Source: Alistipes sp.
GTDB lineage: Bacteria > Bacteroidota > Bacteroidia > Bacteroidales > Rikenellaceae
Direction: 5' to 3'
Length of the DNA stretch: 48,837 bases
Assembly: GCA_017505725.1 (NCBI GenBank)
Contig: JAFVOR010000052.1
Span: forward strand, 1 to 48,837
In this document: in pieces, positions 104 to 18,065 of the stretch
Layout: every line of letters starts with the position of its first letter
Position numbering within the stretch: the first letter of the stretch is position 1
Translations under genes and position numbers: made by a program
The notes under the pieces: model-generated
Seen by the model: the letters and a program-made list of their open reading frames with translations, nothing else
The model's database searches: none
Told to the model about the DNA's origin: nothing

Positions 104-298
104 AATTGCGGAATACGCAATTATTGTAGATGGCATTTAGGCTGTTGCGTTCACGGTAAAACGACCAAAATATACTACGAACAAGCAATAGGCACAATAA
201 ATGCCCTCGCTGTTTTGGCGTGGGTGTGCTTATGTTCGTATGGGTGCTTGGTCGTACCTTCCGTGAATAGGCACTTATCCACGCTTCTTTATTTTTAG
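104..298 (+). ncRNA. Structured leader/sRNA, copy A of a three-copy family
   Basis: A long imperfect hairpin is readable by eye. P1a pairs 150-156 with 261-267 and P1b pairs 161-167 with 249-255. Between them is an internal loop of AAA (158-160) against ACCT (256-259), plus one T-T mismatch. P2 pairs 176-187 with 227-240 with a 2-nt bulge. The tip carries GGCGTGGG at 217-224. The same architecture with different helix sequences occurs at 6615-6775 (C) and 17908-18028 (B). A T-rich tract at 285-298 may be the 3' end. The boundaries are estimates from the promoter and T-tract. It precedes the lipoprotein gene at 377. It could be a free sRNA or a cis-acting leader; I do not recognise the class. 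Confidence 0.6.
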
Positions 299-364
299 TT
301 AAGCGGTTGCTATCCTATAAGCAACGATAGTAACAAACTCAACTATAAGTATGTTTAACTAAAA
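294..364 (+). promoter_or_regulatory. Secondary hairpin between RNA A and the lipoprotein start
   Basis: TAGTTAA near 297 can pair with TTTAACTA near 355-362. Inside it, GTTGC/GCAAC or GGTTGCTATC/GATAGTAAC can form. The ATG follows within about 15 bases, so this hairpin sits where it could affect ribosome access. Function is inferred from position only. Confidence 0.35.
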
Positions 365-376
365 AATCAAATTACT

Positions 377-1045
377 ATGAAAAAGTTATTTATTATGATG
401 TTGCTATGTGCAACAATGGCTTATTTTCCTTCTTGCGAAAAAGAAGGACCAACATTAGGTAAAAGTAACTACACATTACGAAGCGAAGAATCTACAACAA
501 TAGAGGGTATGGGATTGTCTGGTGTTGTTTGGTCATCTAATAACGAATTTGTAGCAACTGCAGAAAACGATGTATTAACATCTAATAAAGTAGGTTCAAC
601 AACATTGAGTTGTGGTGATGCAGTAATTTCCGTAACTGTAAAACCGCGCTACACACTATACAACGAACCTTACGTGTCGTGGGGGTGTAGCATAAGTAGC
701 ATAAAAAGTCAATACGGACAGCCATATTCAGAAACTGATACAAGCCTTATATATCAAACGGCAAATTCAGCTGCACCGTTAATCATTTATATGTTTGAGA
801 ATAATTGTTTAACTTCTTATGGTGTTGTAGTTCCATTGAGTTATGGTGATATATTGGTTGATTTTATCGCTGAACGATATGTGATTGTTGCAGTGGAAGG
901 AACAACCGCCACATTTGTTCATGCATATGGAAAGTTTTCTGATCCTCAAATAGATTATTGGGGTCAAATGGCGTATTCAAACTCAATAGAAGGATTTATA
1001 GTTATGTATGTTCCTTACAATAATACGAGCAATTCTGCCGATTGA
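377..1045 (+). CDS. Putative lipoprotein with bacterial Ig-like (BIG2-type) domain
   Basis: 222 residues. The N-terminus is a lipoprotein signal: MKK, a hydrophobic core to about residue 18, then the lipobox ending in Cys20, followed by charged EKE. Residues about 32-85 (ending ...NKVGSTTLSC) resemble a BIG2-type Ig-like domain, including the VVWSSNNEFVATA segment. The C-terminal 130 residues are rich in Tyr and aromatics and I do not recognise them. The protein is probably anchored in the outer membrane. Composition is much more AT-rich than trmD and mutS nearby, which suggests acquisition. It is transcribed behind structured RNA A and followed by a strong hairpin at 1177-1210. Confidence 0.75.
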   Translation: MKKLFIMMLLCATMAYFPSCEKEGPTLGKSNYTLRSEESTTIEGMGLSGVVWSSNNEFVATAENDVLTSNKVGSTTLSCGDAVISVTVKPRYTLYNEPYVSWGCSISSIKSQYGQPYSETDTSLIYQTANSAAPLIIYMFENNCLTSYGVVVPLSYGDILVDFIAERYVIVAVEGTTATFVHAYGKFSDPQIDYWGQMAYSNSIEGFIVMYVPYNNTSNSAD

Positions 1046-1176
1046 CAAAATACTATCACACTTGATTTGGAAGAATCGAGAAGTATGAAAAGCAATACCT
1101 GCTTCACAAATATAGAAAATGCGATTATAAATAGTAATCTTGTAAAACCATTATAAAATCAACTATTTGTAAATTC

Positions 1177-1210
1177 TTATCGCCTCGCAGATTGCTCTGC
1201 GAGGCGATAA
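1177..1210. terminator. Strong hairpin terminator after the lipoprotein gene
   Basis: A perfect 14-bp stem (TTATCGCCTCGCAG, 1177-1190, with 1197-1210) around a 6-nt loop, followed by CTTTAATT. It lies 130 bases after the lipoprotein stop codon and just before the palindrome array. Being symmetrical, it could act on either strand. Confidence 0.75.
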
Positions 1211-1244
1211 CTTTAATTAACCCTACGATTGCCCACACCTTCAC

Positions 1245-1602
1245 GGGTATCGAAAACGATACCCAGCAGTAAAAAGGGAGCAAAAAACCAACAAAGGGTA
1301 ATCCTTCGCCCTCACGGGTATCGAAAACGATACCCAGCATAAAAAGGGAGCAAAAAAAACAACAAAGGGTAACCCTTCGCTCTTGTGGGTATCGAAAACG
1401 ATACCCAGCATAAAAAGGGAGCAAAAAAAACCAACAAAGGGCAATCCTTCGCTCTCGTGGGTATCGAAAACGATACCCAGCAGTAGAAAGGGAGCAGAAA
1501 AACCAACAAAGGGTAATCCTTCGCTCTTGTGGGTATCGAAAACGATACCCAACACGCCTTTGGAACAGTCCATCACCCTCACGGGTATCGAAAACGATAC
1601 CC
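1245..1602 (+). repeat. Palindrome array 1: six copies of GGGTATCGAAAACGATACCC
   Basis: Exact copies begin at 1245, 1316, 1387, 1459, 1531 and 1583. Each is an 8-bp inverted repeat (GGGTATCG/CGATACCC) around AAAA, always with AAAA on the plus strand. Start-to-start distances are 71, 71, 72, 72 and 52. The first spacers are near-identical (AGCAGTAAAAAGGGAGCAAA and so on), so this is partly a 71-72 bp tandem repeat. The last spacer is 32 bp and resembles the 32-33 bp spacers of array 2. No cas genes, leader or unique spacers are present, so it is not a CRISPR. Overlapping reading frames across it are artefacts of the periodicity. Confidence 0.95.
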
Positions 1603-1641
1603 AGCAGTAGAGAGTATATGGAGTGTAGGGAATTTAATGAG

Positions 1642-2961: not shown

Positions 2962-2996
2962 AGCTCATTCTGCATTTTGCATTCTGCATTCTGCAT

Positions 2997-3712: not shown

Positions 3713-6409
3713 CTAAATTCCTGCTATTTTCTTAATCTCATTGAGTTTATTGAGAGCCTCCAACGGGGTGAGAGAGTTGATGTCAAGCCCCTTGATTTGG
3801 TCACGAATCTGCACAAGGACAGGGTCATCAAGTTGGAACATCGACAACTGCACATCGGGGGTGCGTACCGACTCGGCAACATCGGCAACTCCTTGTGCAG
3901 TAGTCTTTTTGCCACGCTTGCGCAACTCGCCCTTCGGTACCATATCACTATTGCCATAGGCCTTCTCCAGCGCCTCGAGAATTGCGGTAGCACGCTCGAC
4001 AATCGTCGCAGGCATACCCGCCAATTGCGCCACGTGAATACCAAACGAGTGCTCCGTACCGCCACGCTCCAACTTGCGAAGGAATACCACCGTACCATCA
4101 ATCTCCTTGACCGAAACGTGGAAGTTTTTCACACGGGCACACACCTGCTCCATATCGTTGAGCTCGTGGTAGTGCGTAGCAAAGAGTGTGCGAGGATGGG
4201 CCGTAGGGTGGTTGTGGAGATACTCAACCATAGCCCACGCAATAGAGATACCATCATAGGTACTTGTGCCTCGGCCAATCTCATCGAGCAACACCAAACT
4301 ACGCTCCGAGATATTATTCAAAATTGAAGCCGACTCCAACATCTCGACCATAAAGGTCGATTCGCCCTGCGAGATATTGTCCGACGCACCCACACGGGTA
4401 AAAATCTTATCCACCAAGCCAATCTCCGCCTTCGATGCAGGTACAAACGAACCCATCTGTGCCATCAGCACAATAAGAGCGGTCTGGCGCAACAGAGCAG
4501 ACTTACCCGACATATTCGGACCGGTAATCATCATAATCTGCTGCGACTCGGTGTCGAGCATCACATCGTTCGGAATATACTTTTCGCCCACCTTCATCAA
4601 GGTCTCGATAACCGGGTGGCGTGCCGCCTTCAAGTTTATGGTGGTCGAGCGGTTGAGCTGAGGTCGCACATACTTGCGCTCCACCGCCACAACCGCCAAC
4701 GAATAGAGGCAATCTATGCGTGCCACAATCTGGGCATTGCGCTGAATCTCGCGCAAGTAACCTGTTGTATAGGCTATCAACTCGCTGTAAATCTGCTGCT
4801 CAAGTTGCAACATTCGTTCCTCCGCTCCGAGAATCTTTTGCTCATACTCCTTCAGCTCCTCGGTGATATATCGCTCGGCAGCAGCCAAGGTCTGCTTGCG
4901 AATCCAACGCTCTGGCACCTTGTCCTTATGGGTATTTCGCACCTCGATATAGTAGCCAAAGACATTGTTGTAGCCAATCTTGAGCGACGGAATACCCGTC
5001 AACTCGCTCTCCTGCTCCTGAATCTTTTGGAGCACCTCCTTACCGTGCGTTGCTATGCGGCGCAAGTCGTCAAGTTCGGCCGACACGCCATCGGCAATGA
5101 TGCCACCCTTCTGAATCTGGTTGGTTGCAGGGTCGGGATAGATGGTCTTGGCAATCTTCTGCGACAACTCGCTGAGAGGGTCGATATTCGACGCTGCAAG
5201 GTGGAGGATATCGCTATCCGACGACTCGAGTGCCGCCTTCAAGAGCTCGATTGCCTCCAACGAGTTCTTCAACTGAATCATCTCGCGAGGCAAGACTCGT
5301 AACGAAGCAATGCGAGATGCAATTCGCTCGATATCACCCGTCATTGACAGATGCTCGTTAACAGTGGAGCGAGTGGCAGAATCTTTCACGAATACCTCGA
5401 CCATATCCTGACGCTCTTCGATACGCTTCAAGTCGAGAATCGGCATTGCAATCCAGCGACGCAACAATCGCGCACCCATAGCGGTGCGAGTGCGATCGAG
5501 AGTCTTGGCAAGTGAGAAGTTGGTGTCACCTCCGCTCGACGCAAAAAGTTCAAGGTTGCGAGAGGTGAATTTATCGATCCACACATACTCCTCGCGGTCG
5601 AGTCGTGAAAGCGACGAGATGTGAGCAATATCGTTGTGTTGCGTAAACTCCAGGTAGTAGAGTATAGCACCTGCTGCCGAAATGGCACTGCGCATACCCT
5701 CCACGCCAAAGCCCTTCAATGTAGGAACCGAGAAGTGCGTGGTGAGTTTGCCGTAATTGACATCGTAGGAGAATACCCAATCCTCGAGGCAATAGATGTA
5801 ATAGCGCGAGCCGAAAGCCGCCACGAAACGCTCCTTGAGACCTCGCTGATAGACAATCTCCTTTGGCGAGAACGACGAGAGCAACTTCTCGATGTAGCGG
5901 TCATCGCCCTCTGCCACCGAAAACTCGCCCGTAGTGAGGTCGAGAAATGCCACACCTGTAGCCGATTGTCCGAAATAGACCGATGCAAGATAGTGGTTTT
6001 CGCGCTGCTCGACCACATTGTTTTCGAGCACTACGCCGGGGGTAACCACCTCGATAACGCCTCGCTTGACAACGCCCTTCTTTACGAGTTTAGGGTCTTC
6101 GAGCTGCTCACATATGGCCACACGCTTGCCGGCACGCACCAGGCGCGGGAGGTAGGAGTCGATGGCGTGGTGCGGAAAGCCCGCCAACTCCACTGTCGAA
6201 GCACCGCCATTGGCACGACGAGTGAGCGTAATGCCGAGTATTGCACTTGTTTCGATAGCATCGCTGCCGAATGTCTCGTAGAAATCGCCCATTCGGAACA
6301 ACAAAATCGCATCGGGATATTGAGCCTTTACATTCTCGTATTGCTCCATCAACTTCGTCTTACCCGACTTCTGCTCCTGCTCTTCGCCTGTTTTCTTTGT
6401 TCGTGCCAA
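3713..6409 (-). CDS. mutS: DNA mismatch repair protein MutS
   Basis: 898 residues, full length. It recognises base mismatches and small loops and, with MutL, starts mismatch repair. The N-terminal mismatch-binding domain carries the Phe-X-Glu motif in FRMGDFYETF near residue 44. The connector, lever and clamp regions follow. The ABC ATPase has Walker A GPNMSGKS at residues 630-637 and Walker B LLDEIGRGTSTYDG, then the TLFATHYHEL motif. The C-terminal dimerisation tail is present. A minus-strand TATATTTG box lies at 6442-6449, about 33 bases before the start, and is the likely -7 promoter element. Confidence 0.98.
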   Translation of the reverse strand: MARTKKTGEEQEQKSGKTKLMEQYENVKAQYPDAILLFRMGDFYETFGSDAIETSAILGITLTRRANGGASTVELAGFPHHAIDSYLPRLVRAGKRVAICEQLEDPKLVKKGVVKRGVIEVVTPGVVLENNVVEQRENHYLASVYFGQSATGVAFLDLTTGEFSVAEGDDRYIEKLLSSFSPKEIVYQRGLKERFVAAFGSRYYIYCLEDWVFSYDVNYGKLTTHFSVPTLKGFGVEGMRSAISAAGAILYYLEFTQHNDIAHISSLSRLDREEYVWIDKFTSRNLELFASSGGDTNFSLAKTLDRTRTAMGARLLRRWIAMPILDLKRIEERQDMVEVFVKDSATRSTVNEHLSMTGDIERIASRIASLRVLPREMIQLKNSLEAIELLKAALESSDSDILHLAASNIDPLSELSQKIAKTIYPDPATNQIQKGGIIADGVSAELDDLRRIATHGKEVLQKIQEQESELTGIPSLKIGYNNVFGYYIEVRNTHKDKVPERWIRKQTLAAAERYITEELKEYEQKILGAEERMLQLEQQIYSELIAYTTGYLREIQRNAQIVARIDCLYSLAVVAVERKYVRPQLNRSTTINLKAARHPVIETLMKVGEKYIPNDVMLDTESQQIMMITGPNMSGKSALLRQTALIVLMAQMGSFVPASKAEIGLVDKIFTRVGASDNISQGESTFMVEMLESASILNNISERSLVLLDEIGRGTSTYDGISIAWAMVEYLHNHPTAHPRTLFATHYHELNDMEQVCARVKNFHVSVKEIDGTVVFLRKLERGGTEHSFGIHVAQLAGMPATIVERATAILEALEKAYGNSDMVPKGELRKRGKKTTAQGVADVAESVRTPDVQLSMFQLDDPVLVQIRDQIKGLDINSLTPLEALNKLNEIKKIAGI

Positions 6410-6521
6410 AATTCCTTACCTATTTAAGAGTTATAATCGTGCAAATATAACAAAAAAAGTTGAGAGTGGAGAGTTGAGAGTTGAAAATTAATTTTTTAAG
6501 AGGGCAATGCCCTGCAAGGTG
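6410..6521. other. Intergenic: mutS promoter side and GAGAGTTGA-type repeat
   Basis: It contains a minus-strand TATATTTG box (6442-6449) for mutS. Next comes a short repeat of GTTGAGAG units (6459-6485), and a small hairpin AGGGC/GCCCT near 6500-6513. No coding frame is supported. Confidence 0.55.
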
Positions 6522-6552
6522 TTGTTTGTTTGCGAAAAGTTTTCTATATTTG
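6522..6552 (+). promoter_or_regulatory. Promoter of structured RNA copy C (TTG-N20-TATATTTG)
   Basis: TTG at 6522-6524, 20 bases, then TATATTTG at 6545-6552, an exact match to the Bacteroidota housekeeping promoter layout. The core GCGAAAAGTTTTCTATATTTG resembles the CGAAAATAATTTCTAAATTTG core ahead of RNA copies A and B. Expected transcript start is near 6559. Confidence 0.75.
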
Positions 6553-6558
6553 CAACGC

Positions 6559-6810
6559 TGAAAGGCGATTGAATTGTCTTTCGGCAGACATATAGAAAGT
6601 GTTTTCGCAGTCCTAAGATGGAAATGTGGTAGTTTTCAAATGCGATAGGATAACGAACAACACCTATTTCTTGTATATGTACGGTTAGGAGCTTTCTGCC
6701 CCTACGACCTGCATATTACAGGTGTGGGGCATTGTATCGTTTATTATCGCAGGGTTTTACCACAACCTCCATTTTGATAAACGGAAATCAACTCCACACT
6801 TTCTTTTTTA
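6559..6810 (+). ncRNA. Structured leader/sRNA, copy C of a three-copy family
   Basis: P0 pairs 6594-6602 (AGAAAGTGT) with 6796-6804, a perfect 9 bp followed by a T6 tract. P1a pairs 6615-6621 with 6769-6775 (one G-T). P1b pairs 6625-6631 with 6758-6764. The internal loop between them is exactly AAA (6622-6624) against ACCT (6765-6768). P2 pairs 6641-6656 with 6737-6751 with small bulges. The apical arm ACCTG/CAGGT and GCCCC/GGGGC contains GGTGTGGG at 6721-6728. Copies A and B show the same loop and motif with different helices. Because P0 plus the T-run could terminate transcription, this may be a free RNA or an attenuator for the genes from 6863. Class not recognised. Confidence 0.65.
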
Positions 6811-6815
6811 TAAAT

Positions 6816-6842
6816 AACCCACCGCATAGGAGTTGCTACGGT
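6816..6842 (+). promoter_or_regulatory. Small hairpin ahead of the first island gene
   Basis: ACCG...TAG near 6820-6829 pairs with CTA.CGGT near 6836-6842, leaving a GAGTTG loop. The ATG at 6863 follows 20 bases later. RNA copy A also has a second hairpin in the same place before its gene. Regulatory meaning is inferred from position. Confidence 0.3.
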
Positions 6843-6862
6843 AACTTAAAAGCCAAACATTT

Positions 6863-7024
6863 ATGTCACAGTATGCAGTTTATTACAGAAAGAACAACTC
6901 TGATTGTTGCACTTATGTAACCATGGATTATCCTTCAGAGGGTCAGGCTATGGATATTTTGTTGCGACAGGGCACAATCAGACCATCTGACAATGTTTTC
7001 ATCAAGAGAATTGAGCGTCGTTAA
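6863..7024 (+). CDS. Small unknown protein (53 aa)
   Basis: ATG to TAA encodes MSQYAVYYRKNN...RIERR. The 53-residue product has no signal peptide, membrane segment or recognised domain; the C-terminal third is basic (FIKRIERR). It is the first gene after structured RNA C and ends 8 bases before the hairpin at 7032-7070. A coding role is supported by its start just after the leader, its clean end before a terminator and a low-GC composition like the next genes. It remains an unknown. Confidence 0.55.
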   Translation: MSQYAVYYRKNNSDCCTYVTMDYPSEGQAMDILLRQGTIRPSDNVFIKRIERR

Positions 7025-7031
7025 TTGTTTT

Positions 7032-7070
7032 GAGCCTGTCTAACTATGTGACCGCATATTAGATAGGCTC
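7032..7070 (+). terminator. Hairpin terminator after the 53-aa gene
   Basis: GAGCCTGTCTAA (7032-7043) pairs with TTAGATAGGCTC (7059-7070), a 12-bp stem with one G-T pair, then CTTTTG. It fits an intrinsic terminator separating the first small gene from those at 7105 onward. Confidence 0.65.
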
Positions 7071-7104
7071 CTTTTGATTTGCACTTAAATTCTATGTGAG
7101 CATT

Positions 7105-7281
7105 ATGATACTCTGCCAACATTGTGGCAAAGAACTCCCAGATACTTGGAACTGGTTTATATGTGATAAATGCGGTTTTAGAGTATGTCCGTCTTGCTTG
7201 TCAAAACATACGGGTAAATACTCTTCTGGTGGGTATAAATGTAGTCGTTGTGCTTTTGGGCAGATGAAACAATCTAAATAA
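7105..7281 (+). CDS. Small C4-type zinc-binding protein (58 aa)
   Basis: With the ATG at 7105 the product is 58 residues with four CxxC pairs: C4-C7 (CQHC), C20-C23 (CDKC), C28-C31 (CPSC) and C46-C49 (CSRC). That is enough for two tetrahedral zinc sites in a treble-clef or rubredoxin-like knuckle arrangement. A GTG three codons earlier (7096) is possible but less likely. No DNA-binding helix or enzyme motif can be named. It is followed 4 bases later by another small gene, suggesting co-transcription. The cysteine pattern makes it clearly coding; the partner is unknown. Confidence 0.75.
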   Translation: MILCQHCGKELPDTWNWFICDKCGFRVCPSCLSKHTGKYSSGGYKCSRCAFGQMKQSK

Positions 7282-7285
7282 TAAT

Positions 7286-7447
7286 ATGACTATGGGAGAA
7301 ACAATTTTAGACAAATATGCAGAACTTGTGGGTTTAACAAATCAGGAGCAAGACCCTATTGATAGGTTCAAGCAGATTGTGAATCAAGTGGAAGGAACTA
7401 TCATATATACTGACGATGTTGTAGATAATACATCTTCTAAAGAATAA
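7286..7447 (+). CDS. Small acidic unknown protein (53 aa)
   Basis: ATG at 7286, TAA at 7445-7447; the product runs MTMGETILDKYAELVGL...DNTSSKE. It is acidic and predicted helical in its first half, with no membrane segment. It starts 4 bases after the zinc-protein stop codon and ends 42 bases before the next gene, so the three genes 7105-8764 are probably one transcript. An internal Met at residue 3 is an alternative start. No family recognised. Confidence 0.55.
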   Translation: MTMGETILDKYAELVGLTNQEQDPIDRFKQIVNQVEGTIIYTDDVVDNTSSKE

Positions 7448-7489
7448 TTTGTAAGTGACATATCCCGTATTGTAATAAAAGATTTTATT

Positions 7490-8764
7490 ATGAAAAACAT
7501 AAAATTAGAAGTGGGGGAGATATCTTCCCAAATATTTTTATCACTTGTGGTAAGAGCAATAAATGAAAGTGAACGCCACTTTGGAGATAATGAAGAGACA
7601 TCTGAAGCTCTTCGTGACGATGATTTTTTTATAGATATAATTTCTGCGAAAGAAGTTAATGTTTGTTATATGCATAATGCGGATGCACTTACTGGAGCGG
7701 TGCTTATACGGATTAGCCTCCAATATGGACATATTTCCATTCAAGGCGAGTGGGGAATTGAATATCATAAATATTTATCTATAGATGATAGAAACAATTA
7801 TGAGGCATTATATGAAGAGCTACTTAACTCTACAGCTCGTCTGCTAGAGACTTGCATCGCAGATGAAATAAAAATGCTAAAGCATCACTATGATATAGTT
7901 AAAACCTTTCCATACGGATTTAATAAGGTGACTTGCATTAACAATACAACAGGAGCTATTGAAGATGTTAGACTTTCTCCATATTATAATGTCTTGGATA
8001 AAAACAAACAAGCCATTTATAAGACCATTGGACGTTGTCAAAACCATGGTATTGTATATGTGGAGGAATATGGCTATTGCAGTGCTAAAGCTCTGGATAG
8101 ACATGGCTTAGGGGCGATGTATAGGTTGTCATCTACATATCTGTCTATGCTGACTTCCACGGGATACTTATTGTGGATTCCCGTTTGTTCGCTTGAACAA
8201 TCTACAAAACTGCCTTTTAATAAGTTCGTATGTCTAAAAAGTGTGAAGGAGCAGGGGTCCGATAGTGCTATCGTTATATATCTATCATCTAAAGGCATTT
8301 TGTATAATGATAATGTAATACAATCTACTCCAATCTTTCCAAATCCGATAGAATTTGAGACATCCCAAAATGTTACTGTTAAATACCAAACAAATAATAC
8401 AGAGTATGTGTTAAGGGTGTTAGAAACTGGAGAAATATCCATAGAGCAAACCGATACAGATAATAATAAGACGACTAATATATACAATATTGAAAAGATA
8501 GTAGAGAGGGAAGAGATAAACAATCATTCTGACTTACTGCCTTTCTCTGACAAGATAAGCAATTTAGTTGAAGGTCAAATCTGTGATGGTTCACAATTCG
8601 AGCCAATAATTTCGACGAATACAAGAAATAGACTTAGAGACGAAGAACAAGAAAAGAAAAATAGACAAGAGCATCCAATTTTGTATTTTCTTATATATAA
8701 TTGGAAGATAATAGTTGGAGTTATTATTTTCGTGATACTAATGCTTATAAGTATGTCTGTTTAA
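7490..8764 (+). CDS. Unknown tail-anchored membrane protein (424 aa)
   Basis: 424 residues. There is no N-terminal signal; a single hydrophobic segment at the very C-terminus (NWKIIVGVIIFVILMLISMSV, about 404-424) is preceded by a charged stretch EEQEKKNRQEHP. This is a tail-anchor layout with the bulk of the protein in the cytoplasm. The body is rich in Asn, Thr and Ile, has scattered cysteines, and no motif I recognise. A central region (about 180-330) is compatible with mainly beta structure. Low GC and location in the 6863-9320 island suggest acquisition. It is co-directional with the zinc protein and 53-aa gene, so a joint role is possible. Confidence 0.75.
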   Translation: MKNIKLEVGEISSQIFLSLVVRAINESERHFGDNEETSEALRDDDFFIDIISAKEVNVCYMHNADALTGAVLIRISLQYGHISIQGEWGIEYHKYLSIDDRNNYEALYEELLNSTARLLETCIADEIKMLKHHYDIVKTFPYGFNKVTCINNTTGAIEDVRLSPYYNVLDKNKQAIYKTIGRCQNHGIVYVEEYGYCSAKALDRHGLGAMYRLSSTYLSMLTSTGYLLWIPVCSLEQSTKLPFNKFVCLKSVKEQGSDSAIVIYLSSKGILYNDNVIQSTPIFPNPIEFETSQNVTVKYQTNNTEYVLRVLETGEISIEQTDTDNNKTTNIYNIEKIVEREEINNHSDLLPFSDKISNLVEGQICDGSQFEPIISTNTRNRLRDEEQEKKNRQEHPILYFLIYNWKIIVGVIIFVILMLISMSV

Positions 8765-8787
8765 TCATTTCCCACGAGGCGGATTTT

Positions 8788-8827
8788 GAGTCTTGCACGC
8801 ACTCTGTTATAGGTGCGTGCAAGACTC
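8788..8827. terminator. Perfect 15-bp hairpin after the tail-anchored protein gene
   Basis: GAGTCTTGCACGCAC (8788-8802) pairs perfectly with 8813-8827 around a 10-nt loop. It lies 24 bases past the stop codon of the 424-aa gene. There is no strong T-run afterwards, so efficiency is uncertain, but stem strength and place suggest a terminator. Confidence 0.65.
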
Positions 8828-8946
8828 TTGATTTGGCTGTTGCAAAATTGCGTTAACATATTGCTGAGGCATTTGAGGGCAACAAAGAGTGGTGGGAAGA
8901 TGAAGAGAACGAAGATGCTATCAATGAACAATATCAAGATAGGTAA
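8827..8946 (+). pseudogene. Possible gene remnant with an in-frame stop
   Basis: One frame reads DLAVAKLR, stop, then HIAEAFEGNKEWWEDEENEDAI...QDR, stop. The acidic, Trp-rich second half looks protein-like rather than random, but there is no start codon after the in-frame TAA at 8854. It looks like the 3' end of a gene truncated at the hairpin. Weak evidence. Confidence 0.3.
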
Positions 8947-9008
8947 CGTACACAAATTCTGTCTTCAATTATGAGAGAAAGCGTTGTTGTGGATAATTGA
9001 TAGATAAT

Positions 9009-9320
9009 ATGGCAAAAGAGACAAAATTATCATTCTTGATGACTGTTGATGGCTATGAGATTTATATCGAGGATGCCCAACGGGAATTGTATGAGCAAGC
9101 TGCGGATGATAATGAACTAACCGATTTTGAGGTATGGATAAGGGTTTTATTAGCAGAGGAGAATGATATGTTTGATGAGGAAGAAGATATGCTAATCAAT
9201 ACAACATTCCATGGAACTAAATCAGGGCTGAAGTCAGAGTTGTATAAATTGGTTCGTAGCGAACGATTTGCAAAAGAAAAACAATTTAGCTTCGACTTTG
9301 ATAAACTAGATTTGCAATAA
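9009..9320 (+). CDS. Unknown acidic protein (103 aa)
   Basis: From ATG 9009 the product runs MAKETKLSFLMTVDGYEIYI...KLDLQ, 103 residues. It is strongly acidic in the middle (AEENDMFDEEEDM) with a basic patch near the end (RSERFAKEKQ). No membrane segment or known domain. The TTG at 8997 used by an automatic call is unlikely as the start. It is the last gene of the AT-rich island and ends before the shared terminator at 9427-9460. Confidence 0.65.
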   Translation: MAKETKLSFLMTVDGYEIYIEDAQRELYEQAADDNELTDFEVWIRVLLAEENDMFDEEEDMLINTTFHGTKSGLKSELYKLVRSERFAKEKQFSFDFDKLDLQ

Positions 9321-9426
9321 TTGTTGTACAGGAAATAGGTAATACAACATAAAAGGAGGCTGAAGGTAGCTATCTTTTTGCAGTATGGTTTGTGCGAGTT
9401 TTTTTTAGCAATCACATTTACAAATA

Positions 9427-9460
9427 AAAGGCGATCAGCAATAATTTGCCAATCGCCTTT
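9427..9460. terminator. Bidirectional terminator between convergent genes
   Basis: AAAGGCGAT (9427-9435) pairs with ATCGCCTTT (9452-9460). A and T runs on the two sides let it serve both the plus-strand island and the minus-strand UGSC gene that ends at 9464. Confidence 0.75.
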
Positions 9461-9463
9461 GTG

Positions 9464-11368
9464 CTATTTAATATAAAACTCCGAAATAGGTCTGTAGCCC
9501 CTCTCCTGCATCAGTTTATCCCATTCGCGAGGCAGCTCAATCTGCACCGTCTCGAAGCCTCCGCCGGGCATCGTCTGCACCTTGTTGCGGCTATCGTCGC
9601 CCGTAATCAGAAAGGCGGTCATATTCTCCTTCATAGTAGGGATTGTAACCATCTCGGTTTCGGGAGTATCGTACCACACAGGTGTTGGAGTAGTGGCTGC
9701 GCCTTCGGTACGAGTGAGATGGCCCTTCCAGTTGCGAATAGGGTGGCGCTCCTCGGGGTTGCTGCCAGGGTTGGCGTAGTAGTTTGCAAATACTCGTTCG
9801 TGCAACGAGCGACGAGCTGTGCGAATCAAGTCTTGCTCGAGGGAGTACGGAGTGCGATATCTCTTGGCAAGATTCTTTGCAATGGGCTTGGTGAGCAGAA
9901 TTGTGCGATAGGTGAACTGCTTGCCACTACCCAGCGCAAACTGGCAACGCTCGGTGATATCCCACGCCAAAAGCTCCATAATCTTCTGCGGATCGGTCGA
10001 CGATGGTGCCATATTATTACCCCAAAGCAGTGTCGAACAGGTGGTTATGGTATTATCATTCATCGCATAGCCGAGGCGCACGTGGTAGGGTTTCCATCCC
10101 ACCTCGCGACAAGCCACCTCATCCTCGACCAGGCACCAAGGCATAGGATAGCCGAATGTTCCCATTCGATTTTGCTTTACATAGTATCCCGCCAGATTCA
10201 TCAGCGCAAGATTCATAAAACGACCTATCGTGGCGTTTGCCGCCTCGTTTATCTCGCCTTGAGCGCAATCGAATCCGAGTTGTCGTGCCACAGGGCCATT
10301 CAGCCAAGAGTAGGGCACCCAAGCGTGCGTACTCGCCAAAGTGCGACGGAACGAGCCTGCGCCCATCGCCTTTGTCATCGCTATAAGAATAGGCATATAC
10401 TCGGGTTTGCACCCCGCCATCACGCCATTTACAGCCACGTGCCACACCGTAGTATTGCGATGTGCTACAGGGAGAACAGCCACCGTCTCATCCCACTTCA
10501 TATCGGTAAAACGCAGAAACTCGCTCACCTTCTCGAATGTTGGTGGCACAATAGGCAAACCATCAGACCAATTCATCTCACGAAAATGGTCGTTCACCTC
10601 CTGATAAGTACCATAGAATATGTCGTCACGCAAACCGCCTTGATTGCTTTTGGCACTACGAGCCAACTCCTCGGCTGTAATTGGTGTGGTGAGAGCCTTC
10701 ACAATTTGAGGGTACAACACCTCGCGAGTATTTTTAATCAACTCGTCGGTCGTGTGCGAAGCAAATGCACCGGGATATTCCGCTACACGCGGCGCGGGAA
10801 GACCATTATTGGTAGAGGTGTAGAACACCTGCTCGGTAAATGTAGGCGCAGCAATAGCCACCGATGGGATGCCGATATACTCGGCCGCGATACACGAACC
10901 GACCTCTTTGGGTGTGCAAAGTCCGCAGCCGCAATTGCCTGAAATAACTGCGTTTACACCCATCGAGCGCAACTTCTGCTGAAACTCCTCTTTCGAGCGA
11001 CGAGTGACACCCGGAGCAGGGTAAACTCCTGCCGCACCTATCTCGTCGAGCAGAATGATTCGTGCAGTTGGATAATCCTTCAAAATAAGGCGTTTGAGCT
11101 CGGGGTGGGTTATGCGAGCCATAAAACTTCCGCCCACAATAGCGATGGTTTTACCCTCGAGAGAGGTGAGGCGAGGCGCCATCTCAATCATCTGTACCGT
11201 GCCACGACCTACGGGTGACACGACAGCGAAACCATCACCTTTAGTGATTGTTGCCCCCGATTCGGTCTTGCAAGTTTCATCGCATATAATACGCGCAGAA
11301 GATTGCGCAGAGGTCGTTGCAGAGTGGATAACAAAAAGTAGCGTCAGAAGTTTAGGAATAAATTTCAT
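9464..11368 (-). CDS. Exported UGSC-family protein with Cys in place of Sec
   Basis: The Met at 11368 gives 634 residues starting MKFIPKLLTLLFVIHSATTSAQ, a Sec signal peptide; the longer frame upstream has no signal and overlaps the next gene, so the shorter start is chosen. Residues about 25-250 resemble the UGSC domain: ISGNCGCGLCTP (Cys146, Cys148, Cys151) sits where selenocysteine-containing relatives have UGSC. The C-terminal half (WSDGLPIVPPT, NTTVWHVAVNGVMAGCKPEY, GSFRRTLASTHAW) is a second conserved domain often found with it. A redox or thiol role is suggested by the family name only; the reaction is not known to me. Monocistronic between terminator 9427-9460 and the helicase gene. 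Confidence 0.7.
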   Translation of the reverse strand: MKFIPKLLTLLFVIHSATTSAQSSARIICDETCKTESGATITKGDGFAVVSPVGRGTVQMIEMAPRLTSLEGKTIAIVGGSFMARITHPELKRLILKDYPTARIILLDEIGAAGVYPAPGVTRRSKEEFQQKLRSMGVNAVISGNCGCGLCTPKEVGSCIAAEYIGIPSVAIAAPTFTEQVFYTSTNNGLPAPRVAEYPGAFASHTTDELIKNTREVLYPQIVKALTTPITAEELARSAKSNQGGLRDDIFYGTYQEVNDHFREMNWSDGLPIVPPTFEKVSEFLRFTDMKWDETVAVLPVAHRNTTVWHVAVNGVMAGCKPEYMPILIAMTKAMGAGSFRRTLASTHAWVPYSWLNGPVARQLGFDCAQGEINEAANATIGRFMNLALMNLAGYYVKQNRMGTFGYPMPWCLVEDEVACREVGWKPYHVRLGYAMNDNTITTCSTLLWGNNMAPSSTDPQKIMELLAWDITERCQFALGSGKQFTYRTILLTKPIAKNLAKRYRTPYSLEQDLIRTARRSLHERVFANYYANPGSNPEERHPIRNWKGHLTRTEGAATTPTPVWYDTPETEMVTIPTMKENMTAFLITGDDSRNKVQTMPGGGFETVQIELPREWDKLMQERGYRPISEFYIK

Positions 11369-11420
11369 ATCGTCTCGTTTTTGATGATACGATATTAAAG
11401 ATAGTATCACAGGGCAAAAG

Positions 11421-12851
11421 TTAAATTTTATCCTCGAAAAAGCGTTCGTCGAAGTTGACAAAGTAGAGTCGTTCCGTTGCTCGGGTCATTGCTGTATAGA
11501 GCCAGCGAAGCATATCCTTTGTCATAGGTTCATCACCAAAGATGCATCTATCGACAAATACCGCCTTCCACTGACCGCCCTGTGCCTTGTGACAGGTTAC
11601 GGCATAGGCAAATTTTATCTGCAAGGCGTTGAAATAGTCATTCTCACGAATCTCCTGAAGGCGTTTGATCTTGCTCTTTACATCGAGATAGTCCTTCTCA
11701 ACCTCGCGGAATAGGCGCTCGCTCTCATCTCGAGTGAGCGAAGGCGACTCGGAGTGGAGCGTGTCGAGCAACACCTTGCATTCGATCTCGGTATCGTCAT
11801 AGTCACCAAATGATAGGGTAGCGGTAGCAAAGCGAAAACCGTAAAACTCCTCCACACGACGCAGTCGCTTCAAGCGGGCAATATCTCCATTGGCAATGAA
11901 GTTGATTGGGCAGTTCTCGATTCGGTCGGTGTAGTGATAATTATTCTTTGCAACCATCAGTATATCACCGCTTTCCAACTCCTCTTCAGCCATCAGATTT
12001 ATGCGGCGAATACCCTCATTGTAGCGGTTTGCGCGTTTATTCGAGCGAGTGATTACGATGGTCTCCTCACGACCATAGCGGTCGTAGCAATCCTGCAACG
12101 CCTCCAACAAATCTGAGCCACCCACCGACTGCACATCGTCGTAGCCGAGGTCGAACTTCGGAATCTCGTAAATCTTGTTTTCAAGCATACAACGCACAAG
12201 TGTTGCATTGAAGAGTATTCCCGAATTTTGCTCCTGACGCACTACCTCATCCATCGAGCCATAGACCACATCACCGAATTGACTCATCTCCATCGCATCA
12301 AGGGCAGGTGAGAAGTCGGCACCAACGGGCGGCAACTGGGCATTATCGCCCACCAGAACGAGTCGGCAATTTCTGCCCGAGCGGACATATTGCACCAGAT
12401 CCTCGAGCAACGATCCACTGCCAAACTGCACACCGTCAGAGCCGGTATGAGTAGACAACATCGAAGCCTCATCTACGATGTAAATCACATCTTTATCACG
12501 GTTTATATTAAGTGAAAATTTAGATTCATACGAGGCGTTGGTGCGCTCACGATAGATGTGTTTGTGAATGGTAAACGCCTTCTCGCCCGAGTAGTGCGAC
12601 AAGACCTTTGCTGCTCGACCCGTAGGGGCAAGCAACACCGAGCGAATACCGACACTTTTCAATGCTGCAACAATGGCTGAGACGAGCGTAGTTTTACCCG
12701 TTCCGGCATATCCGTTCAACACAAAAATCGAAGATGTATCGCCTTCGGCGAGATACTCTGCAAAGGCCTCGACGATTTTTTTTTGATTATTCGTTGGTTG
12801 ATACAATAATTTTGCGTAAATTTGGCACGAAATATCGGAGATGTTAATCAT
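11421..12851 (-). CDS. RecD/PIF1-like ATP-dependent DNA helicase
   Basis: 476 residues. Superfamily 1 helicase motifs are clear: Q-motif-like LLYQPTNNQKKIVEAF, Walker A GYAGTGKT (residues 47-54), motif Ia LLAPTGRAAKVL, the TIHKHIY signature, Walker B VDEASML near 126, LVGDNAQLPPVG (motif III), and the C-terminal UvrD_C_2 segment TCHKAQGGQWKAVF...LYTAMTRATERLY. It lacks the long N-terminal region of RecD2, so it is the short form common in Bacteroidales. Likely role is 5'-3' DNA unwinding in repair. It is divergent from the gene at 12895, 43 bases away. Confidence 0.9.
   Translation of the reverse strand: MINISDISCQIYAKLLYQPTNNQKKIVEAFAEYLAEGDTSSIFVLNGYAGTGKTTLVSAIVAALKSVGIRSVLLAPTGRAAKVLSHYSGEKAFTIHKHIYRERTNASYESKFSLNINRDKDVIYIVDEASMLSTHTGSDGVQFGSGSLLEDLVQYVRSGRNCRLVLVGDNAQLPPVGADFSPALDAMEMSQFGDVVYGSMDEVVRQEQNSGILFNATLVRCMLENKIYEIPKFDLGYDDVQSVGGSDLLEALQDCYDRYGREETIVITRSNKRANRYNEGIRRINLMAEEELESGDILMVAKNNYHYTDRIENCPINFIANGDIARLKRLRRVEEFYGFRFATATLSFGDYDDTEIECKVLLDTLHSESPSLTRDESERLFREVEKDYLDVKSKIKRLQEIRENDYFNALQIKFAYAVTCHKAQGGQWKAVFVDRCIFGDEPMTKDMLRWLYTAMTRATERLYFVNFDERFFEDKI
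12794..12824 (+). promoter_or_regulatory. Promoter TTG-N20-TAAATTTG for the 12895 operon
   Basis: TTG at 12794-12796, 20 bases, TAAATTTG at 12817-12824, an exact Bacteroidota promoter layout on the plus strand. It lies inside the 5' end of the helicase gene, so the transcript would begin antisense to it near 12831 and have a leader of about 64 bases. Confidence 0.65.
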
Positions 12852-14810: not shown

Positions 14811-14814
14811 CAAG

Positions 14815-14836: not shown

Positions 14837-14882
14837 TGTTTTTACACCTAAGGCGCAAACAACTTTATCGGAGCAAAGAAAA

Positions 14883-14913: not shown

Positions 14914-14931
14914 CTATTTTAGGCGTTACTA

Positions 14932-16815
14932 TTAGAATGGCTTCGGAACATAAATCGAGCCATCAGGGTTTATGAGGATGTAACTGATTGGAGCGATACT
15001 CTTGCTCTCCCACACAACGCTCTGCTCGTTATAGTTGCAGATAGTCTTGCTGCCATCGGCATAGGCGGTCAAGAATAGATTCTCGCCCACCTGACGATGG
15101 TCTGTCATAAGTTCCCTCTGCAGGTGTCGTACGGGCACAAACTCATCCCAGGCTCGCTTGATGCGAGGCACATCGGCAAATTTATAGGTGTAGAATATCG
15201 GACGACCACCAAACTCGACAATCTTCAACGAGATTTTCGGATCGACCACGCCATCGCCCTCCATCCAACGAGGATCGCCCGACTTCTCCAACTTATAAAG
15301 ACATTTTCCGCGAGTATGATTCTGAGTAGCACGATCGGAGTTGTAGAGTATAATGCCGTGATAAACCAACTCCCACAATGGGCGCACACCCGTAGCAAAC
15401 GGATATCGACCATCTGCCAAACTCTTAATCTCCCTGCCCACATAGTTGATATAATCGATATTTGCTGCCACGTGGTCGTAACCGCCCTCACTTGCAGCTC
15501 CACCCATCAATCGTTTCGATTCGGCAAGAATTTTATTCTGAATCACTGCCATCTGCTCGGGAGTAGCAGGGTGTCGAGGATCGGCACATCTATTCGGATA
15601 GGTTGCCGAGTAAACATCGATATAGTGTGGGCCACGAACACCCAAATTTGCCATTTTCTTCAACTCCTCGGGTACCCACTTGCTCCACGATGCCACCTGG
15701 CACACATTGATGCACCATCCACCTGCCCAAATGCTGCCACGATCATAAGAACCATCCTTGAGTTTACCTGCCCACCACTCGTCCCACATTGGAGAGACAG
15801 TATAGCCATCGGTATTGGTTGCGTGAAGGGTCATTTGATAGCCGAGGCTCTGTGTCTTCTCAATGAGTCGGCGCAGGCCAGCCTCACCACCGATAGATTG
15901 CTCAACTGGAAAATGTTGCGGTGTGCGACCATCGTAACCACCATAGTTCCAGCCCGCCGAGACAAATGTCGCCTTATCGACACCTGAATCCTTGATGGCT
16001 TGCACAAACTCGCCAGACACACCAAAAGGCATATGCACCTCGAGTGGATACTCGGTCTCGGCCGTAAAATCGGCCTTCACACGATCGGGGCTTTTTGACG
16101 AAATATCAGCGATAGGCTTTGCGCAGTGGGTTTGGATACGCACTACAATAGACTCGGTGAGATAGTCGAGCTCAGGTTGCTCTTTGATGCGTTCCTTGAT
16201 GGTTTTGACTCCGCTATTCTCAAACTGATAACGCTGGTACGCCTTTGCGATGTTGGCATAAGTCGCATCTTCGCCCTTGAGACAGTGGTAGTCAATAACG
16301 ATATCGTCGTACAGATCGAAATATTTACGCACTAAATCGGCTCTGAAACGAAGCACCGTCTCATAGTTGCCATCTGTTGCACGAGCTATAAAGGAGTAGT
16401 CGAAACGCCACTTCTTGACGTGTCCCCACCAGAGATTATCACCACGCTTCATAGCGTAGATAGGCATCACGCTTCTTGTAGTTCGATAGCCTCCGTTCTC
16501 CTTATCGAAGTATCCGTACATTCCGCGTGCGCTCATCCAATAGCCTTCGTTGCCCTTAACGGCCTTCATAAACGAAGGTAGCACCTCGATTCCCCAAACA
16601 CCATCGGCTATATGCTCCTTCGGGATGGTCAATCGCATACCCTCGGCACATTTCACAAGTTTATACTTGCGTATCTCGACCTTATTTTCGCCATTCGGTA
16701 TAGGTTTCTCGGTCGAATCATTTGGTTTGCCATACAACATTCTCACCTCGACACTTTGCGCCGAGAGCGATGCTGCAAAGAGTAGAAAAACAAACAATGT
16801 GGATAATCTCTTCAT
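14932..16815 (-). CDS. Secreted DUF5696-like protein, probable glycoside hydrolase fold
   Basis: 627 residues with a Sec signal peptide (MKRLSTLFVFLLFAASLSAQ). The N-terminal 150 residues are beta-rich (SARGMYGYFDKENGGY, YSFIARATDGNYETVLRF). The middle and C-terminal part looks like a TIM barrel: VSAGWNYGGYDGRTPQ, LGYQMTLHATNTDGY, GPHYIDVYSATYPNRC and GAASEGGYDHV are strand-end segments with acidic residues. They resemble DUF5696 proteins and, more distantly, GH101-type endo-alpha-N-acetylgalactosaminidases. A carbohydrate substrate is likely but cannot be named. There are no SusC/D genes beside it. It stands directly downstream of the methyltransferase gene, 11 bases apart. Confidence 0.6.
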   Translation of the reverse strand: MKRLSTLFVFLLFAASLSAQSVEVRMLYGKPNDSTEKPIPNGENKVEIRKYKLVKCAEGMRLTIPKEHIADGVWGIEVLPSFMKAVKGNEGYWMSARGMYGYFDKENGGYRTTRSVMPIYAMKRGDNLWWGHVKKWRFDYSFIARATDGNYETVLRFRADLVRKYFDLYDDIVIDYHCLKGEDATYANIAKAYQRYQFENSGVKTIKERIKEQPELDYLTESIVVRIQTHCAKPIADISSKSPDRVKADFTAETEYPLEVHMPFGVSGEFVQAIKDSGVDKATFVSAGWNYGGYDGRTPQHFPVEQSIGGEAGLRRLIEKTQSLGYQMTLHATNTDGYTVSPMWDEWWAGKLKDGSYDRGSIWAGGWCINVCQVASWSKWVPEELKKMANLGVRGPHYIDVYSATYPNRCADPRHPATPEQMAVIQNKILAESKRLMGGAASEGGYDHVAANIDYINYVGREIKSLADGRYPFATGVRPLWELVYHGIILYNSDRATQNHTRGKCLYKLEKSGDPRWMEGDGVVDPKISLKIVEFGGRPIFYTYKFADVPRIKRAWDEFVPVRHLQRELMTDHRQVGENLFLTAYADGSKTICNYNEQSVVWESKSIAPISYILINPDGSIYVPKPF

Positions 16816-16826
16816 TTTTTCAATTG

Positions 16827-17594
16827 CTATTTAGTCGCCACAAAAAATAGATCGAAGCACTTCATACCGGCCTCGTAAGGGACGATAGAGTAGTCCTCCA
16901 TCGTGATTGATTCGGTGAGGGAGCTATTGCGCTTATGCAGATTACGACGATTTAACCTATTGAGCAGATCGTATGGCCACTGCAGCATCTTGCGAGGCAG
17001 ACGGTGCTGCAAATCGAGCAGATCGAAGCGCATTATCTTGCGCACCGACTGGCGATTCTTCTCATAGTAGGCCATAACCTTCTCGTTGCCCACAACGCCA
17101 TACGCCTCCACCTTCGAGAAGTGACACTCGAGCAGATTTCGCAGCTCGTCGGCATTGTACTCACGCACGTGCCAAGGGTTGCGAGTGAGCGACATAGGGG
17201 CATTTGGTGTGGAAACCACGAACTTGCCACCGGGACGCAGCACTCTCGCCACCTCGCGCACAAGGTCGATATCCTCCTCGATATGCTCGATTACCTGAAA
17301 CGACACCACCGAATCGAACGAGCAGTTCTCAAACTCGATTGGTGGCACCTCCATATTGTAGTACTCGACATTCTCGAGCTGAAGCGGACTCTCGGGCAGA
17401 GTCTTATCAATAGATATATATCTCATAGCCTTCCTGGCTATTATCTCCACTCCATAACCCGTGCCGGTGCCTATCTCGAGGATATCACCCTCGACCAACT
17501 CGGCAGCACGATGATACGCCAGCACCGAGCGCTGGTAGACATAGTTATCAGACTTTTCGAGCGACACGCGCTCTGCGGTTGCTATATTCGCCAT
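16827..17594 (-). CDS. Class I SAM-dependent methyltransferase
   Basis: 255 residues. Motif I is DILEIGTGTGYG (37-48), followed by a post-I acidic residue in ISIDKTLPES, and FQVIEHIEEDIDLVREVARVLRPGGKFVVSTPNAPMS. These are typical of the Methyltransf_11/25 group (UbiG-, SmtA-like). The C-terminal region has a basic stretch LLNRLNRRNLHKRN. The substrate cannot be read; neighbours give no pathway. The DUF5696-like gene follows at 11 bases and probably shares the message. Confidence 0.85.
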   Translation of the reverse strand: MANIATAERVSLEKSDNYVYQRSVLAYHRAAELVEGDILEIGTGTGYGVEIIARKAMRYISIDKTLPESPLQLENVEYYNMEVPPIEFENCSFDSVVSFQVIEHIEEDIDLVREVARVLRPGGKFVVSTPNAPMSLTRNPWHVREYNADELRNLLECHFSKVEAYGVVGNEKVMAYYEKNRQSVRKIMRFDLLDLQHRLPRKMLQWPYDLLNRLNRRNLHKRNSSLTESITMEDYSIVPYEAGMKCFDLFFVATK

Positions 17595-17635
17595 ATTCTT
17601 AACTTTTAGCCATTGGCCATTAGCTATTTTATAGC
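17595..17635. repeat. Low-complexity TTAGCCATTGGCCATTAGC repeat
   Basis: Short interspersed TAGCCATT/CCATTAG units ahead of the inverted-repeat element. Similar strings appear at 34714-34742 and 41250-41306. No function visible. Confidence 0.5.
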
Positions 17636-17735
17636 CGTCATTCCGAAGGAGCGAAGCGACTGTGGGAATCCCCCTTATTGTTATTAAAATTAAAAGTGGG
17701 AGATTGCCACGAGCCTAGCGGCTCTCGCAATGACG
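17636..17735. repeat. 100-bp inverted-repeat (MITE-like) element
   Basis: Both ends read CGTCATT(C/G)CG inward. The left arm GTCATTCCGAAGGAGCGAAG and the reverse complement of the right arm align over about 38 bases with several mismatches, separated by an AT-rich loop. The right end is also found at 1-22. No transposase frame. It resembles the GTCATTGCGAG-type palindromic elements scattered in many bacterial genomes. It sits just upstream of structured RNA B, as does the partial copy ahead of RNA A. Confidence 0.7.
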
Positions 17736-17801
17736 ATTTGTTTATTTTCTGCAAAAATAAAAAATTTTACCCATAATTCCGCAACTCTTGAAAATAATTT
17801 C

Positions 17802-17809
17802 TAAATTTG
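17802..17809 (+). promoter_or_regulatory. -7 box (TAAATTTG) of structured RNA copy B
   Basis: TAAATTTG inside a string shared with the promoter of RNA copy A; the identity runs from the inverted-repeat end (17713) to 17812 and then stops. Expected transcript start is near 17816. Confidence 0.6.
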
Positions 17810-17815
17810 TAGCAC

Positions 17816-18065
17816 CATAACATAAAATCGCACTTGCCTATGAAACATTAGTGTACTTGATACGCACAATCTAGACATATTGAAAAAGCTATTTTAGTTT
17901 TATTCTACTATTCAGAAAGTTTGGCGACTAATTTGAATACCAGTAGGAATAATACAAGAATACTCACGCTATACGGCGTGGGCTTTCGGTTATTCTACTG
18001 GTAGGTTACGCCAAACACCTCTGAATAGAAATACACTGAAAGTACCGCGCTTTTTTTTGTGCGTA
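17816..18065 (+). ncRNA. Structured leader/sRNA, copy B of a three-copy family
   Basis: P0 pairs 17861-17869 (TACGCACAA) with 18057-18065, perfect 9 bp. P1a pairs 17908-17915 with 18021-18028 and P1b pairs 17919-17926 with 18009-18016, both perfect 8 bp. The internal loop between them is exactly AAA (17916-17918) against ACCT (18017-18020). P2 pairs 17938-17952 with 17990-18003 with one bulged G. The apical hairpin CACGC/GCGTG contains GGCGTGGG at 17975-17982. A T8 run is at 18051-18058. Helices share no sequence with copies A and C, yet pairing, loop and motif are kept. It lies ahead of the frameshifted gene at 18140. Ends are estimated. Confidence 0.65.

Follow-up and report, generated by a model that had tools for sequence, protein, structure and literature searches.

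A candidate family of structured RNAs with variable helices lies in front of unrelated genes in Bacteroidota

Three structures on the plus strand of an Alistipes sp. contig (JAFVOR010000052.1, assembly GCA_017505725.1; the window analysed is its stretch of 48,837 nucleotides, nt) are true copies of one RNA family (Table 1). A preliminary description had placed them at 150-267, 6615-6775 and 17908-18028 as a candidate structured RNA family. They were located at these positions, and the proposal is now well supported by many homologues with covarying pairs and by the lack of a credible Rfam match. The family appears to be large, undescribed, intricately folded and spread across Bacteroidota. Sequence comparison supports the family itself, its pairing, its position, the unrelated genes behind it, one locus of gene exchange and empty sites. 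The fold of each copy beats all 200 dinucleotide shuffles, with z-scores of -3.2 for copy 1 (108-300), -5.5 for copy 2 (6561-6812) and -7.6 for copy 3 (17816-18070). A descriptor (helix, two to four A, helix, helix, ACC, helix, with 50-190 nt between AA and ACC) searched on both strands of the window returned all three copies, each with a GYGUGGG tip, and one further match of lower score and without the tip on the minus strand (plus-strand coordinate about 30,100-30,170). The 9-bp closing helix reported earlier for two copies is exact in copies 2 and 3.

Table 1. Features of the three RNA copies and their surroundings (positions in the window)
Feature	Position	Strand	Remarks
Copy 1, TAnnTTTG promoter-like box	90..97	+	TAAATTTG
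Copy 1, RNA	106..290	+	from 5′ hairpin TTGCG/CGCAA (106-120) to U-rich tract
Copy 1, helices (parse)	P1 150-158/259-267; P2 161-168/248-255; tip arm about 203-224	+	
Copy 1, loop elements	AA 159-160; GGU 243-245; ACC 256-258	+	UU run absent after P2
Gene behind copy 1	377..1045	+	222 aa, exported-looking; no Pfam match
Copy 2, TAnnTTTG promoter-like box	6545..6552	+	TATATTTG
Copy 2, RNA	6585..6835	+	9-bp closing helix 6594-6602/6796-6804 (K in the parse: 6595-6602/6796-6803); U tract 6804-6809
Copy 2, helices	P1 6614-6622/6768-6776; P2 6625-6632/6757-6764	+	
Copy 2, loop elements	AA 6623-6624; GGU 6753-6755; ACC 6765-6767	+	
Copy 2, E stem	CAACUCC 6789-6795 with GGAGUUG 6829-6835	+	
Open reading frame behind copy 2	6863..7024	+	53 aa, not exported-looking
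About 5 kb with copy 2	6409..11434	.	between mutS (3713-6409) and the open reading frame at 11421-12851; both adjacent in genomes G006 and G029
Copy 3, TAnnTTTG promoter-like box	17802..17809	+	TAAATTTG
Copy 3, RNA	17851..18086	+	5′ hairpin 17851-17865; closing helix 17861-17869/18057-18065; U run 18051-18058
Copy 3, helices	P1 17908-17916/18020-18028; P2 17919-17926/18009-18016	+	
Copy 3, loop elements	AA 17917-17918; GGU 18004-18006; ACC 18017-18019	+	
Copy 3, E stem	GUACC 18042-18046 with GGUAC 18082-18086	+	
Gene behind copy 3	18140..19053	+	signal peptide at start; second part without Pfam match
Copy 3 and gene, 1.6-kb insert	17600..19216	.	flanking methyltransferase and CvfB-like genes adjacent in G003, G006, G028 and G030

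In the 2.36-Mb genome that holds the window, a pattern of tip plus ACCU occurs 50 times and its reverse 19 times; a minority of the 50 are the RNA, and these were picked out by the descriptor. BLAST with copy 3 gave matches in 14 of 61 genomes (its own and 60 relatives), two other families among them. For the covariance-model search that the preliminary description had suggested, a model (R1) was constructed from 21 aligned copies, an alignment in which 21 of the 40 predicted pairs change on both sides. R1 matched in 43 of the 61 genomes and 8 of 25 genera, with as many as 21 copies in a single genome, and in 15 of 197 further genomes drawn from the phylum, where 13 candidates per listed genome were scored. 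Searches spanning over 40 genomes used stricter filters. Since R1 was built from subfamilies A and B, other subfamilies are undercounted. In the window, copy 3, itself among the building sequences, scores 172.9 bits (17873-18057); copies 1 and 2 are not among them. Copy 2 scores 36.9 bits (6586-6806, E-value 2e-5), and copy 1 (117-290, 27.7 bits, E-value 0.0014) missed the 0.001 cut-off of the family collection and was added by hand.

A sequence pattern for one type of the P2 helix matched in at least 119 contigs, and 38 of the 41 loci from this pattern that were scored by R1 were confirmed at E-values up to 0.01. The carriers include named Bacteroides, Parabacteroides, Prevotella and Flavobacteriaceae: those confirmed include Paraprevotella clara, Bacteroides timonensis, B. 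cutis, B. caecigallinarum, Parabacteroides distasonis An863, Hoylesella loescheii, Prevotella disiens, Flavobacterium segetis, Flagellimonas meridianipacifica and Galbibacter mesophilus. No occurrence outside Bacteroidota is claimed, because the Lysobacter contig of the genome scan was not confirmed by R1. Six viral contigs carry the full TTTGGCGAT pattern, two pairs of them alike, and all six were confirmed by R1; the TTCCAGA pattern was found in no viral contig and the bare 16-mer in 14, none of which was confirmed.

The Rfam search likewise suggested earlier gave, for the window at gathering threshold, two tRNAs only (release 15, as in all Rfam searches here). Searched alone at E-values up to 10, copies 1-3 have six sub-threshold matches, none credible, and none to the models of 6S RNA or 6S-flavo. 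Among 12 loci searched at E-values up to 1, one sub-threshold match overlaps an RNA copy (L032, Thr_leader, 0.49), and eight distant loci searched up to 10 gave nothing at or above gathering score except a tRNA. A described Rfam family was therefore rejected for the loci scanned. The DUF805b RNA (RF02914) matches below gathering score in L032 (493-528, minus strand) and in L053 (1767-1801, plus strand), the latter about 35 nt behind the RNA. The motifs listed in PMC2864571, among them Flavo-1 (RF01705), Bacteroidales-1 (RF01693), Bacteroides-1 (RF01694) and 6S-flavo (RF01685), are likewise structured RNAs of Bacteroidota (Bacteroidetes there) with mostly unassigned function, as far as that listing goes, but none of these four matches the three window copies or the eight distant loci at E-values up to 10. 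Overlap with the 64 structured 5′ regions reported for Flavobacterium psychrophilum in PMC9723704, some without an Rfam match, is possible, as is the presence of fragments of the family, as an unnamed entry, among the 5183 automated candidate structured RNAs from HMP2 gut metagenomes (Fremin and Bhatt, 2021, PMC8040213). The abstract and early Results of the latter describe no such family. A full-text literature search returned none in the titles and abstract openings listed.

From 5′ to 3′ the elements follow the order 5′ hairpin, K, a, P1, AA, P2, UUU, P3, a′ and tip arm, then c1, P3′, GGU, P2′, ACC, P1′, c1′, E, K′, U tract and E′; the rod seen in the preliminary description corresponds to P1, P2 and P3. 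The 148 R1 matches together with copy 1 gave 148 distinct sequences, of which 142 were parsed and six left out (L044, L133, L137, L145, L147 and L191). When strands are paired with their own versus swapped partners in 121 copies, z reaches 47.7 for P1, 38.1 for P3 and 30.6 for P2. With swapping confined to copies of the same P2, P1 (16.2) and P3 (14.3) remain, while P2, being the same in all such copies, gives no signal. For the strands outside P1 and P3, two pairings are available, as part of the rod (a:c′ 6.5, a′:c 11.9) or within the strand (a:a′ 8.0, c:c′ 9.9), which the swap test does not separate. A separate alignment of 30 copies has 90.9% of cells paired across the whole structure and a covariation score of 0.361, against 0.161 in shuffled versions (reached in 0 of 500) and at most 0.110 in slid versions; its P1 is paired in 98.5% of cells, and of the 9 pairs in P1, 7 have two-sided changes, with up to five pair types per pair. 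The 5′ hairpin is also favoured (mean score 15.5 versus 13.4 in shuffles, standard deviation 0.2).

The helix sequences had been called unrelated between copies. They do differ, but unequally: P1 occurs as 107 different 7-mers in the 142 copies and P2 as only 38, the commonest in 21, 14 and 13 copies. P2 holds 987 Watson-Crick pairs, no G-U and 6 others (993 in total), and P1 1050, 39 and 47 (1136), under parse scores that disfavour G-U in both alike. Five related RNAs (L056, L060, L181, L164 and L182) have the same P1 and a P3 that differs on both strands. L044 (G034, 1541-1722) looks chimeric, with a 5′ half that fits an L051-like copy and a 3′ half that fits one like L053, so that its P1 and P2 no longer pair; this points to recombination within the conserved tip, or else to a chimeric contig.

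The AAA/ACCU internal loop noted earlier is present, but its description was incomplete, as its strands seem to be part of two hairpins crossing P2. The loop shared by the copies is AA/ACC, and the remaining A and U form the innermost pair of the outer helix, a pair that itself varies. Directly 5′ of P2′ lies GGU, facing the ACC directly 3′ of it. GGU:ACC is found in 123 of the 142 copies, including all three of the window, and the others have GGC:GCC (11 copies, five P2 types), GGU:GCC (2), GGU:AUC (2), AGU:ACU (1) or no pairing (3); this table takes the right-most GG, but 15 of its rows stem from a first parse with a score in favour of GGT and TTT, and 4 rows were set manually. As copies were parsed with AA..ACC as anchor, the conservation of AA and ACC is partly built in. 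A second parse, which took no GGU input but chose the best-pairing triplet near P2′, gave GGU:ACC in 103 of 117 copies, GGC:GCC in 11 and others in 3. Within one subfamily aligned alone, C with G (7) and U with A (3) co-occur without exception at this pairing. On the other strand, the A run 5′ of P2 faces a U run 3′ of P2, and this AA:UU stem is closed by G-C (81), U-A (9), C-G (6) or U-G (2) in the 142 copies. The AA:UU hairpin is less certain than GGU:ACC, because its own-versus-swapped z of 5.8 falls to 2.0 within P2 types. Judged from these pairings, two facing hairpins seem to cross P2 and the rod; they may coexist with P2 as a kissing complex in a four-way junction, or alternate with it.

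A T-rich tract had been noted downstream of all three copies. The tract is there, but its reading as the 3′ end of the RNA is not supported; it is probably not the end, because a covarying stem, E, is found further on, upstream of the start codon. The paired strands of E in copy 2 are CAACUCC, just 5′ of the closing strand, and GGAGUUG, whose end is 28 nt upstream of the start codon; the counterparts in the related L062 are CAUCUCC and GGAGAUG. Over the 142 copies, E has an own-versus-swapped z of 15.3, and 4 of its 6 pairs show two-sided changes in the 30 aligned copies; G-U pairs occur in it. The stem crosses the closing helix K as a pseudoknot. Subfamilies A and B have a second closing helix beyond the U run, which, read by eye, differs on both sides in L048 and L052. 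From E and this second helix, the RNA under selection seems to extend as far as the gene.

The position of the RNA points the same way. TAnnTTTG is the promoter consensus of Bacteroidota; 122 of 142 copies have such a box no more than 110 nt upstream, whereas 23 of 259 control windows contain one. Among 147 copies with at least 300 nt of downstream sequence, 132 have an open reading frame (ORF) of at least 40 aa starting on the same strand within 120 nt downstream (141 within 260 nt), compared with 29 of 142 (69 within 260 nt) in the antisense direction upstream and 314 of 894 (510) from random positions in the same loci. The distance to the first ORF of 60 aa peaks at 40-60 nt. The RNA thus has a set place between a promoter and a same-strand ORF, as a cis-acting leader would. 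By a simple in-house rule, the longest ORF starts like a signal peptide in 108 of 141 cases, versus 8 of 69 antisense and 107 of 510 random; this position-controlled count takes the longest ORF in place of an earlier choice that favoured signal peptides (109 of 141, with a control of 169 of 570 ORFs of at least 100 aa that included the genes in question). The 141 downstream proteins fall into 100 BLASTP clusters, 81 of them single. Among 95 of the 100 representatives, Pfam (E-values up to 1e-5) finds 39 families, none in more than three proteins; those listed include DNA methylases (EcoRI-type and C-5), a nuclease of the GIY-YIG type, and fimbrillin-like and BspA-type proteins. The PADLOC models listed comprise methylases and one PD-T4-3, with a single protein for each. 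Since the downstream genes are unrelated to one another, the idea of a toxin-antitoxin system or a retron was abandoned. The helices were also rejected as guides to their own flanks or gene, since P1, P2 and P3 tested against own versus swapped flanks (up to 200 nt upstream, 220 nt downstream) all give |z| of at most 1.1.

A few similarities were seen among these genes. L404 and L405, from two different families, have similar small proteins (68 and 95 aa; PNFEYPAS/PEFDYPAS) 36-40 nt behind the RNA; L042, L050 and L157 have related small proteins resembling, by eye, helix-turn-helix regulators; and in the distant-family loci L396 and L398 (G085, G234) and L402 (G167) the next ORF appears, by eye from the protein start, SusC-like or an extracytoplasmic function sigma factor. 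L163 has tandem copies on one strand (910-1127 and 1261-1476), about 130 nt apart, with no 40-aa ORF found between them. In the window, the frame of the copy 3 gene is broken near 18268 (43 aa, the remainder in another frame), through gene decay or an assembly error.

Similar RNAs also precede unrelated genes. Among 156 pairs of RNAs that share 80% identity or more over 150 nt or longer and whose genes are both known, 145 stand before unrelated proteins and 11 before related ones, the pairs not being independent. In 15 pairs examined closely, likeness begins within 82 nt of the RNA start in 13; it stops at most 8 nt from the end of the RNA match in 8 and extends 37-108 nt in 7. At one locus, G028 and G029 are 96% identical up to 12-17 nt before the start codons, then hold different genes (about 2.5 and 3.0 kb) and return to 93% identity; the right-hand junction falls within an ORF and has no RNA match close to it. 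Empty sites correspond to copies 2 and 3 of the window (Table 1): the 5 kb around copy 2 are missing from two relatives, and the insert of copy 3 and its gene from four. GC content is 32-39% in the copy 3 insert, versus 51% on either side, and 33-39% over 6401-9600 in the copy 2 region, versus 53%. In G005, the closest relative, the place of copy 2 holds an RNA 82% identical to it with another gene behind. Copies 1 and 3 share pre-promoter sequence (1-100 and 17640-17800), including part of a dispersed repeat (..GGCTCTCGCAATGACG..), and AACTTTTAGCC/AACTTTTAAC-like repeats border the copy 3 insert. A common phage or plasmid element was rejected: copy 3 has no match in phages or plasmids, and a Bacteroides timonensis copy has none in phages and two partial plasmid matches (Parabacteroides distasonis, Phocaeicola massiliensis). 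The CvfB-like protein has no match among viral sequences.

What would such an RNA do in front of so many different genes? Its set place between a promoter and differing genes, often for exported proteins, suggests that the RNA probably controls the expression of newly acquired genes, and on balance we favour a cis-acting 5′ leader. Several observations weigh against this reading or its details. Of 11 distant loci, three (L399, L403 and L406) lack a 40-aa ORF in the next 260 nt, and in three more (L396, L398 and L402) the ORFs lie 137-227 nt downstream, which does not favour a strict leader there. P3 is paired in only 79.1% and the tip in 81.3% of cells of the 30-copy alignment. In 33 of 131 copies the bases closing AA:UU do not pair, a further 11 copies lack UU, and among the window copies the hairpin is seen in copy 2 only. 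GGU:ACC gives no signal in a coarse window test of own versus swapped partners (z -0.4), because the pair is nearly invariant. The second closing helix past the U run is seen only in subfamilies A and B, and the U tract right after the closing helix resembles an intrinsic terminator, at which some transcripts may end. Taken further, this last point leads to an independent small RNA with its end at the U tract, terminated by closing helix and tract, the gene being transcribed separately. The copies inspected have the helix followed by the tract, the RNA has a promoter box of its own and its rods fold very stably, but the covarying E stem past the tract, the two-sided changes in the A/B closing helix and the short, peaked distance to the ORF make this quite unlikely. 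A riboswitch or second-messenger sensor common to many unrelated genes is unlikely as well. Cyclic di-GMP (c-di-GMP) riboswitches also occur in many copies per genome, and a pseudoknotted leader, up to 21 copies per genome and unrelated, often exported-protein genes would suit such a sensor. Against it, P2 exists in 38 sequence types, and few positions outside the helices are invariant, so that a small-molecule pocket is not obvious; related genes or a pathway behind the copies, not required of all riboswitch classes, were not found (100 clusters among 141 proteins). In general terms, the RNA resembles cis-regulatory leaders and many-copy riboswitches such as c-di-GMP-I in being a structured 5′ leader with many copies before diverse, often surface-related genes, but differs in its hairpins crossing the rod, the lack of a conserved ligand pocket seen and the lack of an Rfam match.

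The exchange of genes at the G028/G029 locus, the pairing of RNAs with unrelated genes and the empty sites would also fit a DNA recombination site, an attC-like folded single strand that captures gene cassettes and is transcribed incidentally. Integron attC sites share the variable sequence, the conserved stem-loop and the adjoining exchangeable genes, but the element here lies behind a promoter box and ahead of a gene, has G-U pairs in P1 and E (though none in P2), and at G028/G029 the right junction is away from any RNA. The attC core pair RYYYAAC...GTTRRRY is present in 1 of 142 copies, against a shuffled mean of 2.0, and the integrase search in this genome (85% complete) gave below-cut-off matches only, as in all 14 control genomes. 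An attC site was rejected, and a recombination site of this kind is improbable. A miniature transposable element that spreads alone, with no role for the gene behind, would agree with the 8 of 15 similar pairs whose likeness ends within 8 nt of the RNA match before unrelated genes. Yet a place before gene starts, and helices replaced in matched pairs, require that the RNA be under selection, and we regard such an element as very improbable.

For the favoured 5′ leader, transcription into the gene, control of its expression and the mode of action are the parts that we infer. Transcription would start at the promoter about 50 nt upstream, and the nascent RNA would fold into the small 5′ hairpin, the long rod (K, P1, P2, P3, tip arm) and the last stem, E, which would cross K as a pseudoknot and end shortly before the start codon. 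The strands flanking P2 would carry their own hairpins, GGU:ACC and, in most subfamilies, AA:UU; P2 would therefore be a loop-loop (kissing) helix, or the RNA would switch between the rod and two hairpins. The leader would most likely determine what share of the mRNA is finished or translated; by analogy with other leaders, the K/U-tract/E region is the likeliest site of this control. It would precede unrelated accessory genes, mostly for exported proteins and some for DNA methylases, nucleases or regulators; genes would be exchanged behind it and the leader would turn up at new places. A bolder version, which we hold as tentative, is a portable, phylum-wide leader whose two arms fold first as separate hairpins and only then zip by a paranemic-like crossing, with P2 as a sequence-coded kissing helix. 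The helices would be replaced as matched pairs, so that many copies coexist per cell, and any captured gene would receive the same regulated start. Synthetic paranemic and kissing-hairpin RNA motifs likewise alternate pairing within and between the strands of two facing hairpins; the RNA described here differs in being natural, in having variable helices and in being known from sequence alone.

Structured leader RNAs are a known kind; what appears to be new is the family itself, together with its crossing hairpins and its promiscuous placement ahead of acquired genes. If the leader reading is true, bacteria across a phylum fit many unrelated acquired genes with one elaborate RNA, which would amount to a shared rule of entry for DNA gained by horizontal transfer; the literature search found no description of such a rule. 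With different helices in each copy and one topology throughout, the family would also serve as a natural, replicated test of how crossed-hairpin RNAs fold.

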